From IMG/VR virus record IMGVR_UViG_3300034418_006039, positions 1 through 32,365 of that record: a stretch of DNA of 32,365 nt; one strand, written 5' to 3'. The notes under the pieces were generated by a model. The model saw only the letters and a program-made list of their open reading frames with translations, searched no databases and had not been told where the DNA came from. Origin of the DNA: a virus. Within the stretch, counting starts at the first letter, position 1, and each line of letters opens with the position of its first letter. Below are positions 19,146 through 21,503 of this stretch, piece after piece. Made by a program: the position numbers and the translations under genes.

Positions 19146-19649
19146 TTAAGCGAGTTGGTCGCGGTCAACGTCTGCTGCTTCCTGAACCTGACGGACATCC
19201 GTCATGAATACAGTGAAGCGAACCTTGCCGTCAGACGGTACAACAGAACCCGGTACAATCAGGGTCATGTCGATTGCGTCCTCTGCCGAGGTTGCATTAA
19301 CAGAGTTTGCACCAAACGGAAGCAGACCATTCGAACCCGGTGCAACGAAGCCCAGAGTGTTAAGGTCGCCACCATCGACAAAATCGTCACCACCTGCAAC
19401 ATCAAGGTCAAACGTAGCACCCGTCGAAGAGTCTACAGTAAGAACCTCTGCAATTGCACCGTGAAGCAGAGTGTATGCCGGGACGGGCATAACCTGAATC
19501 ACATCAGCAGTAGCGAGAGCCGAACCTTTAGTGGTGGTTGCTTCTGCGAGGTCGATGACACGCACGACTTTGTACGGTCCCGGCCCAGAGAGGCGGGAAA
19601 CGTGGTTGGCGTTTGCGCCTGAACCTTGGCGAAGATCAATAGTAGCCAT
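19146..19649 (-). CDS. Capsid-associated (decoration-type) beta-rich protein, 167 aa
   Basis: A small, acidic, Ala/Gly/Thr/Val-rich protein with no cysteine. Strands such as YKVVRVIDLAEATTTKGSAL and DGKVRFTVFMTDVRQV suggest a beta-sandwich. Its place directly behind the MCP (apart from the intron), its size and its strong ribosome binding site (TAAGGAGG overlapping the second MCP stop) are typical of abundant head decoration or accessory capsid proteins. The function is inferred from position. In the spliced message the MCP stop codon and this GGAGG would be joined directly, as in an intronless genome. Confidence 0.7.
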   Translation of the reverse strand: MATIDLRQGSGANANHVSRLSGPGPYKVVRVIDLAEATTTKGSALATADVIQVMPVPAYTLLHGAIAEVLTVDSSTGATFDLDVAGGDDFVDGGDLNTLGFVAPGSNGLLPFGANSVNATSAEDAIDMTLIVPGSVVPSDGKVRFTVFMTDVRQVQEAADVDRDQLA

Positions 19650-19667
19650 TGGTATCTATCCTCCTTA

Positions 19668-19715
19668 CGCGATGTTTACACGCGCTGTCACGATTGCTTC
19701 AGGACGAAGAATCTT
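19668..19715 (-). repeat. Second, recoded copy of the last 16 MCP codons
   Basis: This stretch encodes KILRPEAIVTARVNIA in a frame that ends at a TAA (19665-19667). It matches the MCP C-terminus at 20421-20468 (KILRAEAIVTARVNIA) in 15 of 16 residues, but in only 32 of 48 bases. Fourteen of the 16 codons differ at the third base. The Pro, which the intact MCP lacks, is the residue I expect in the KxLRPEA motif of related capsid proteins. It overlaps the end of the nuclease gene in another frame. An ATG precedes the first K codon at 19716-19718. Confidence 0.9.
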
Positions 19716-20172
19716 CATTTATATTCAATGAGGGGCGGTAATCCTCACCCGCTTGAAGGTATTTAATTGCCGATTTTAAGATTGTCGCGCTATCTTTGAA
19801 AAGACCCAGCCCATGATTGCATGAACTACACAACAAACCTCTTACCTTACCCGTATCATGGCAATGATCAACAAAGAGGCGAGAAGTCCTATTACTAGAA
19901 ATCTTGCTTTTGCAGATGGCACATTTTCCATCTTGATCATCAAATATCTGTTCATATGTTTCCCATGTGATGTCGTAAGTACGTTTAATGAAGGCTTTGT
20001 ACTTCCTGTGCTCATTACATGGTTTACATTTTGACCTCATTGCAATACCTCCAAAAGACCGTTTATCTCGCTCTAAAGAGTATTGTGATGGGTCTTTGAA
20101 CTTTCCGCAGGATGTGCATACTCTGCCTTTTTCATGCGGGTGTCCATTGGGTAACCTAAGTTTCTTCGACAA
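19699..20172 (-). CDS. Intron-encoded endonuclease VII-like homing endonuclease, 157 aa
   Basis: The C-terminal domain is of the recombination endonuclease VII type: CAIC (84-87), VDHCHDTGKVRGLLCSSCNH (101-120) with D102, H103, H105, C115, C118 and N119, then the helix GLGLFKDSATILKSAIKYL. An N-terminal zinc knuckle has C19, C22, C49 and C52. These proteins cut DNA at branched or specific sites and commonly drive intron homing. The start is TTG at 20172 behind GAGGT, just after intron stem P9. The last about 15 residues run past the usual family end into the second copy of MCP codons, read in another frame, so the gene tail was formed at that junction. Confidence 0.9.
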   Translation of the reverse strand: MSKKLRLPNGHPHEKGRVCTSCGKFKDPSQYSLERDKRSFGGIAMRSKCKPCNEHRKYKAFIKRTYDITWETYEQIFDDQDGKCAICKSKISSNRTSRLFVDHCHDTGKVRGLLCSSCNHGLGLFKDSATILKSAIKYLQAGEDYRPSLNINEDSSS

Positions 20173-20417
20173 TTTTTTACCTCATAGCTGCTGTATGTTT
20201 CCATACAGATTAGACTATATCAAACACTGGTGTTTTCCAGTGTCCCCCTATTTCCCACTCCCTTGAGTGGTACGGGATGTCTCCCTAGTCGTTACACGTT
20301 CCCTTGTAAGGGCTTCGCTCGGTATTGTCTTAGCCTCGTCCATGAGCCTTAGAGTTTCACCGAATTAAGGGGGTTTCGAATGTAGATCACTCTACATAAG
20401 CGCAGTACCTAAGAATA

Positions 20418-21503
20418 TTAAGCAATATTAACGCGAGCGGTAACGATTGCCTCTGCTCTCAGGATTTTACGACCATACATGTGCATACCACGGACAATAT
20501 CCGCGAAGCTGTCTGGATCACGGTAGCTCTCAACTTTGTTGATCTGCTCCGCGCATGCGACAGCCGACTTGTGACCAGCAACAACAACACCGTAGTTGGT
20601 GCCCTGTGCAGCGGTACCAGAAGTTCCAGCGCCCGTACCAATAACTGGCAGGTTGTTAGAAGTGTAGATTTTGAAGCCACGAATCATGCCTTCACCTACG
20701 CGACCATTGCGAAGAAGATTCTCGCTAGAGGAAACGTAGTCATGGTTGACAAGCTTAGACTGCTCATCACCCAACACTTCAAGGAACACCGGATCAACAA
20801 TGACCCAACGATCTTCCTGTGGAACAAACTGCTGATCCAGAAGACGCTTCATGCGGTTCAGAACCTGCAACGGCGAAGCAAAGTTCGACGTGTTAGCAGT
20901 CGGGTTAGCACCAAGCGGGATGGAGTCCCCAGCGCTTGCAGCAGTCGTACCGAAATTGTTGGAGAAATCGGTGCGGTCAAGCTGCATGGTAGCCAACAGA
21001 CCCTGACCATTCGTGGTGCTGATTGGCGAGGTGCCGGATGCATCAGCAGAAGTAGCCGTGGTGTTAGCGTTGCTGTGCAGAGCCGACTGAGTGTAGCCAG
21101 TAAGGTAACCAAGAACGTCTTGGTCATACTGGTCTTTCAGGCGGTAGCCAGCGCGAGAAGTCGCGAGGTCTTCCCAGTTGTGATGAGCATGCTTCTCTTC
21201 GATGTCGTCAATCTTGAAGGCAAAGTAGTTTGCCTGATCCACAACCATCGTGAAGTCTTCATCATCGAGGTCTTGAGCGGTGATTTGAGTACCGCGAGAG
21301 TAAGCTGAAACCGAAATTTCAGGCTCTTTGATGATACGGACGGAATCACCCATGTTGGAGATTTCACCGTAGTAGTCGTTGTTGCAAATGTCCTGACAAA
21401 CAGAAGATTTGCGAAACGCGAGTTGGGCCTTTCTAGAATAGATAACAGGACTGAAATTCCCGTTAGGAAGGTTGCCCCAACCTGCTGCTGCGCGGAAAGC
21501 CAT
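20418..21503 (-). CDS. Major capsid protein, 361 aa
   Basis: The protein should form the icosahedral shell. It has the N-arm NGNFSPVIYSRKAQLAFRKS, the GDSVRIIKEPEISVSAYSRG strand pair, the long helix region with LKDQYDQDVLGYL, the VPQEDRWVIVDPVFLEVLGD strand and the C-terminal end RGMHMYGRKILRAEAIV, features I know from HK97-fold coat proteins of short-tailed phages. Its position after the scaffold gene agrees. It is preceded by AGAGGA at nine bases. The upstream 280-base leader has a promoter and hairpin. A group I intron begins exactly at its stop codon, so translation yields the full protein with or without splicing. The final Pro-to-Ala change in KILRAEA is unusual. Confidence 0.92.
   Translation of the reverse strand: MAFRAAAGWGNLPNGNFSPVIYSRKAQLAFRKSSVCQDICNNDYYGEISNMGDSVRIIKEPEISVSAYSRGTQITAQDLDDEDFTMVVDQANYFAFKIDDIEEKHAHHNWEDLATSRAGYRLKDQYDQDVLGYLTGYTQSALHSNANTTATSADASGTSPISTTNGQGLLATMQLDRTDFSNNFGTTAASAGDSIPLGANPTANTSNFASPLQVLNRMKRLLDQQFVPQEDRWVIVDPVFLEVLGDEQSKLVNHDYVSSSENLLRNGRVGEGMIRGFKIYTSNNLPVIGTGAGTSGTAAQGTNYGVVVAGHKSAVACAEQINKVESYRDPDSFADIVRGMHMYGRKILRAEAIVTARVNIA
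20421..20468 (-). repeat. First copy of the MCP C-terminal 16 codons (5' exon end)
   Basis: This is the MCP end as translated from the unspliced message, KILRAEAIVTARVNIA, then UAA. It is the partner of the copy at 19668-19715; see that entry for the comparison. Confidence 0.9.

Follow-up and report, generated by a model that had tools for sequence, protein, structure and literature searches.

The gene for the major capsid protein (MCP) in the window, i.e., the whole 32,365-nt stretch of viral DNA analysed here, is probably interrupted by a mobile group I intron for which splicing is optional and whose P1 loop holds a recoded version of the downstream 16 codons together with a stop codon. The intron would sit between Arg345 and Lys346 of the MCP. 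As it carries a spare ending, spliced and unspliced RNA alike should yield the complete capsid protein: the unspliced mRNA would give a full-length protein ending in KILRAEA..., and the mRNA spliced at CGU/AAG would give the native KILRPEA... end (a slash marks a proposed splice point or intron boundary throughout). The features of the locus are listed below.

20469..21503, minus strand: MCP exon 1, 345 codons, ending in ...MHMYGR (PHROG 267, major head protein)
Minus strand: last bases of MCP exon 1, GGUCGU, the 5' strand of the proposed P1
19716..20468, minus strand: proposed group I intron, 753 nt, from CGU/AAA to AUG/AAG, with the RF00028 match inside
20418..20468, minus strand: copy 1, recoded C-terminal coding copy, KILRAEAIVTARVNIA and stop, in the proposed P1 loop
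20420..20452, minus strand: hairpin inside copy 1, 20452-20447 with 20425-20420
20398..20404, minus strand: proposed internal guide UGCGCUU, the 3' strand of P1, pairing with GGNCGU/A
20380..20397, minus strand: P2 hairpin AUGUAGA-GUGA-UCUACAU
20191..20430, minus strand: Rfam group I intron match, catalytic core (RF00028, 72 bits, E 9.8e-17)
19699..20172, minus strand: intron-borne EndoVII-type homing endonuclease gene, TTG start (PF02945, E 3.8e-26; PHROG 2633)
19716..19745, minus strand: 3' terminal element of the intron, a stem followed by UUGAAUAUAAAUG
19665..19715, minus strand: copy 2, MCP exon 2, native C-terminus KILRPEAIVTARVNIA and stop
19146..19649, minus strand: next gene downstream of copy 2 (flank), with no Pfam or PHROG match

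The MCP gene, whose cultured relatives are HMO-2011-type phages with an identity of about 61% or less, starts at 21503 on the minus strand and is open to a stop at 20418. Its product ends twice in the window, once in copy 1 (20468-20418) and once in copy 2 (19715-19665), and the roughly 0.7 kb between the two contains a group I core followed by the Endonuclease_7-type gene. The copies agree in 15 of 16 residues and in 32 of 48 bases; the 16 differing bases change 14 of the 16 codons, each at the third base, and in the Arg and Ala/Pro codons the first base has changed as well. With as many changes placed randomly, about 9.3 residues would be expected to differ, against the one observed. The duplicated ending, its coordinates and the counts of shared residues, shared bases and changed codons had been noted in a preliminary description of the locus, which read them as divergence under coding selection, and are reproduced here. 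Chance and assembly error are excluded, since four contigs from other, different metagenomes carry the window arrangement at 99.9-100% identity and seven diverged lineages have the same layout.

Searches with the endonuclease and with patterns taken from the intron added these seven distinct lineages, in which the parts follow one another in identical order (L085, L087, L088, L089, L091, L093, and L249; L093 is near-identical to L092 and the two were counted as one), so that the layout is common to at least eight diverged phage lineages, which exchange the intron and are not fully independent. An exon ending in GGNCGT is followed by the recoded ending with its stop, a group I core, an EndoVII-type homing endonuclease gene, an AATG terminus, and the native ending; the exon end GGNCGT, the copy 1 start AARAT, the intron end AATG, and the copy 2 start AARAT are present in 8/8. 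The stop codon of copy 1 lies directly before UGCGCUU or up to 13 nt before it, four of the eight having no linker between stop and guide. RF00028 scores above the gathering threshold in the window and in all seven other lineages. Intronless relatives have a single MCP ending only; the intronless L004, with 91% MCP identity, ends in KILRPESIVTARVNIA, and the next gene follows at once. Further interruptions occur in the MCP genes of two of the lineages: a second group I intron near residue 96 in L088 (1167-1930; RF00028, 51.4 bits), and a break of about 0.9 kb near residue 44 in L089 (902-1826), which has no Rfam match above threshold and is probably another intron.

On sequence comparison, copy 2 is the native MCP ending, as the preliminary description had expected from its Pro. 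Arg-Pro-Glu is found in 115/115 MCP endings without an intron and without a recognised downstream endonuclease; in the eight lineages every copy 2 has Pro, and every copy 1 has Ser except that of the window (Ala). In the last five codons of L004, the closest intronless relative, copy 2 matches 5/5 and copy 1 0/5. A break in similarity, for which the preliminary description had suggested looking, lies near the Arg/Lys boundary: L085 and the intronless L251 share about 92% nucleotide identity along the gene and 63% in the last 18 codons. Judged by such alignments, copy 1, not copy 2, behaves as a part of the intron and travels with it (L087 and L089 are 96% identical in copy 1, 83% in the upstream exon, and 67% in copy 2); the mobile unit therefore appears to begin at or near CGT/AAR. 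An origin of copy 1 from a sampled relative was considered and rejected, as in a sampling that favours relatives of the two queries no intronless gene has a KILRPEA codon log-likelihood below -24.5 or lacks the Pro. The tail of the window copy 1, ARVNIA, is that of its own lineage, all other intron carriers having AKYNLA, and given this own-lineage tail a distant donor is a poor explanation for this copy. When copy 1 is compared pairwise among the genomes, 2-25 bases and 0-5 residues differ; residue changes are fewer than randomly expected, except in the two closest pairs, which have too few differences to judge. The pattern of mainly synonymous differences is the same in copy 2, some of which may predate the arrival of the intron in each lineage. 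In L085, the last 22 nt of both copies (GCAAAATACAACCTCGCCTGAT) are identical and the first part is strongly different; the identical stretch may result from conversion between the copies outside the putative cleavage site. The idea that copy 2 is translated on its own from the AATG was dismissed, no ribosome-binding site being seen there by inspection.

The proposed boundaries are marked by bases conserved in 8/8 lineages, namely the U before the intron and the terminal G at the 3' splice site (AATG), and the codon before the splice point is CGT in all eight distinct intron carriers versus 32/115 intronless genes. The guide UGCGCUU is invariant, and all six P1 pairs, including the splice-site U:G, are formed in 8/8 alignment rows; P1 is without covariation because it does not vary. 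When the exon end, copy 1, the linker, and the guide were folded without constraint, the pairing of GGNCGUA with UGCGCUU was predicted in 8/8, with one bulged base of P1 placed one position away in L087. In P2, 6/7 pairs have changes on both sides across the eight lineages (compensatory). Within the copy 1 hairpin, the Glu-Ala codons pair with the Ile/Leu-Ala-stop codons, and two wobble-position pairs change on both sides (columns 30/54: G-C, A-U, and U-A); overall, 92.8% of the pairing cells in the alignment are filled, versus 30-52% in slid controls. Only 1-2 pairs of a P10 between the guide and the 3' exon are possible by inspection. The P1 placed by Rfam itself starts within copy 1 and was rejected, being unconserved in the other lineages. 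A 3' ending of the same type (a stem, then TGAAYA...G) is found in 38/57 distinct related introns with a loose pattern. In an exact search of viral contigs, neither the spliced nor the empty-site junction of the window was matched. When introns of the family were scored for copies of their downstream exons, those in MCP genes alone exceeded the background. Related introns in L171, L181, L187, L221, and L240 follow a ...ETAL-coding exon; their P1 loops are very variable in length and are also in frame to a stop, and no downstream-exon copy was found in them.

In the folding computations, the formation of P1 depends on the codons used in copy 1. With 15 nt of exon, the predicted probability of the P1 U.G pair is 0.62-0.99 in 8/8, versus means of 0.007-0.29 when the copy 1 codons are swapped for random synonymous codons (the null model) and at most 0.005 when the codons of the genome's own copy 2 are used. 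With 30 nt of exon it falls to 0.03-0.93 and is weak in L089 (0.08) and L091 (0.03); the contrast with synonymous recodings is kept in 7/8 and is marginal in L249, where they equal the real P1 in 9% of draws. These predictions are two-dimensional and consider neither the core nor ribosomes. P1 formation is the only consistent folding signal of the copy 1 codons, as the overall folding energy relative to synonymous recodings shows none (z -1.95 to +1.60). Copy 1 best fits a position inside the P1 loop of the intron.

The intron-borne enzyme contains the EndoVII motif (CxxC, DHxH, R, CxxC, N) as CAIC, VDHCH, and VRGLLCSSCN, and relatives of its gene sit at the same place in other lineages. In the window, its reading frame continues beyond the 3' splice site through the first 17 nt of exon 2 (19699-19715), in a frame other than that of the MCP; in most other lineages it ends earlier, inside the 3' terminal stem. 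Close free-standing relatives adjoin the MCP gene in L094-L103, with no intron at that place. The codon log-likelihood of KILRPEA, with a median of -7.4 and a 1% quantile of -22.9 in intronless genes, is -26 to -47 in copy 1, -6 to -18 in copy 2, and -17 to -38 in the MCP ends beside these free-standing enzymes, with 7/8 of these last ends below the 5% quantile of the intronless genes and 6/8 at or below their 1% quantile. Since these ends are recoded too, avoidance of cleavage is a probable cause of the recoding apart from RNA folding, and the recoding probably also blocks self-cleavage by the endonuclease; close comparators are often absent (upstream identity 0.63-0.92), so that lineage codon preference contributes in part to the free-standing cases. 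If copy 1 were not recoded, the sequence where it meets exon 1 would equal the intronless gene, presumably the target of the enzyme, which would lie within the KILRPEA codons. More distant EndoVII-type genes (about 40% identity) directly after the MCP stop in L251, L257, and L263 are preceded by ordinary endings, and as these are not recoded, the enzymes there may target another site. A tree of intron-borne and free-standing enzymes did not separate their order of origin. In L100, a group I intron (1134-2019) lies upstream of a free-standing EndoVII-type gene behind a recoded MCP end.

The recoding of copy 1 would accordingly have two jobs in the proposed intron: the left junction of the intron allele would no longer restore the uninterrupted target of the endonuclease, and codons would be supplied that permit P1, which the native ones would not. 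Ribosomes on unspliced RNA would complete the capsid protein within copy 1 and halt just before the guide, so that the core is not entered; if the RNA folds first, splicing would follow and yield the native capsid end. The two copies, the conserved boundaries, the joint travel of copy 1 and intron, the mostly synonymous change in both copies, and the recoding beside free-standing endonucleases are present in the sequences, and P1 with its dependence on the copy 1 codons is computed; splicing itself, the translation of both capsid forms, and the endonuclease target in the KILRPEA codons are inferred. A more tentative version, conceivable but rather doubtful, makes translation the switch between two outputs: a ribosome at the copy 1 stop would cover the guide and leave the RNA unspliced, giving the Ala- or Ser-ended protein, and ribosome-free RNA would splice to give the Pro-ended one. 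Two capsid isoforms in a set or conditional ratio would then be produced.

Splicing at the Arg/Lys boundary had been put forward in the preliminary description as one of two readings and is the better supported, with CGT and P1 in 8/8. It is unlikely that splicing goes unused and that, as in the fungal mobile ORFs discussed below, copy 1 replaces the C-terminus, with the endonuclease next to it and copy 2 left as an untranslated relic of the recipient. Copy 1 alone does complete the MCP, close endonuclease relatives follow intronless MCP genes whose only end is recoded, and the native end is unexpressed in the fungal atp6 and cox2 elements (PMC3630166); against this, the catalytic core, P1, P2, the guide, and the boundary bases are all conserved, the copy 1 codons are fitted to P1, and in 8/8 copy 2 begins right where the intron ends, is open, and has retained Pro.

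The second reading in the preliminary description, a one-off event in which homing imported an intron together with the upstream MCP end of a diverged phage, an illegitimate 3' join left the recipient's own end inside the intron, and the working 5' site would lie after copy 1, does not hold up and is very improbable. In its favour, intronless relatives match copy 2, not copy 1, and illegitimate one-sided joins are known for T4 td homing (PMC2988022). Against it, both boundaries are common to eight lineages, copy 1 moves along with the intron, in 5/8 copy 1 ends the stop is preceded by C rather than U, and the tail of copy 1 in the window is that of its own lineage. Similarly far-fetched is a 5' splice site after copy 1 (GCU/UAA, in the window only), from which splicing would either place two C-termini in tandem or change no more than the 3' UTR. 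The window alone can pair UGCUUAA with UUAGGUA, and UUCUUA with UAAGGA downstream, but that U pairs at no more than 0.02 in the ensemble, so that the pairing is not predicted; the site is unconserved, the required U is absent in 5/8 lineages, and in the four without a linker the stop directly adjoins the guide.

The closest precedent for the proposed splicing-optional intron is provided by mobile ORFs with a carboxy-terminal duplication in fungal mitochondria, known for atp6 of Allomyces and for atp6, atp9, cox2, and nad3 of Glomus (PMC3630166). There, too, an endonuclease gene lies between a divergent and a native C-terminal copy, the copies are near in protein and far in DNA (63.5% of nucleotides and 91% of amino acids for atp6), and the foreign-looking copy adjoins the gene body. 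Unlike the window, these mitochondrial elements encode LAGLIDADG or GIY-YIG enzymes, and their unit is not reported inside a group I intron that would restore the native end by splicing, whereas copy 1 and the endonuclease gene of the window lie within the proposed intron.

Phage capsid genes that contain group I introns have been described before (PMC3706429). Those of T4 td and of the mycobacteriophage LittleE capsid gene likewise reside in a structural or essential phage gene, have U before the intron and G at its end, contain an endonuclease gene, and often have an in-frame stop after the 5' site; however, they are not described with a downstream-exon copy, and the full-length protein needs splicing. 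Bacterial group I introns commonly contain in-frame stops close to the 5' site, which are thought to aid folding (PMC3984707); in the window, the stop follows a complete protein. EndoVII-type (DHHRN, F-CphI) homing endonucleases are an established family, and the collaborative homing of F-CphI in cyanophage psbA also combines an EndoVII-like enzyme with a phage intron at a conserved gene and an intron-bearing allele shielded from self-cleavage (PMC6083498). In that system, the site is disrupted by the intron, and the enzyme is encoded elsewhere than in the intron, whereas in the window the gene lies inside it, and the left junction would have to be protected through recoding. Literature searches within an open-access library turned up no intron described with a coding copy of its downstream exon, and the novelty of the design is provisional. 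The intron design unites two known strategies, self-splicing and the replacement of a C-terminus by a mobile ORF, and a single stretch of sequence is apparently under simultaneous selection for the protein it encodes, for ribozyme structure, and for escape of the DNA from an endonuclease.
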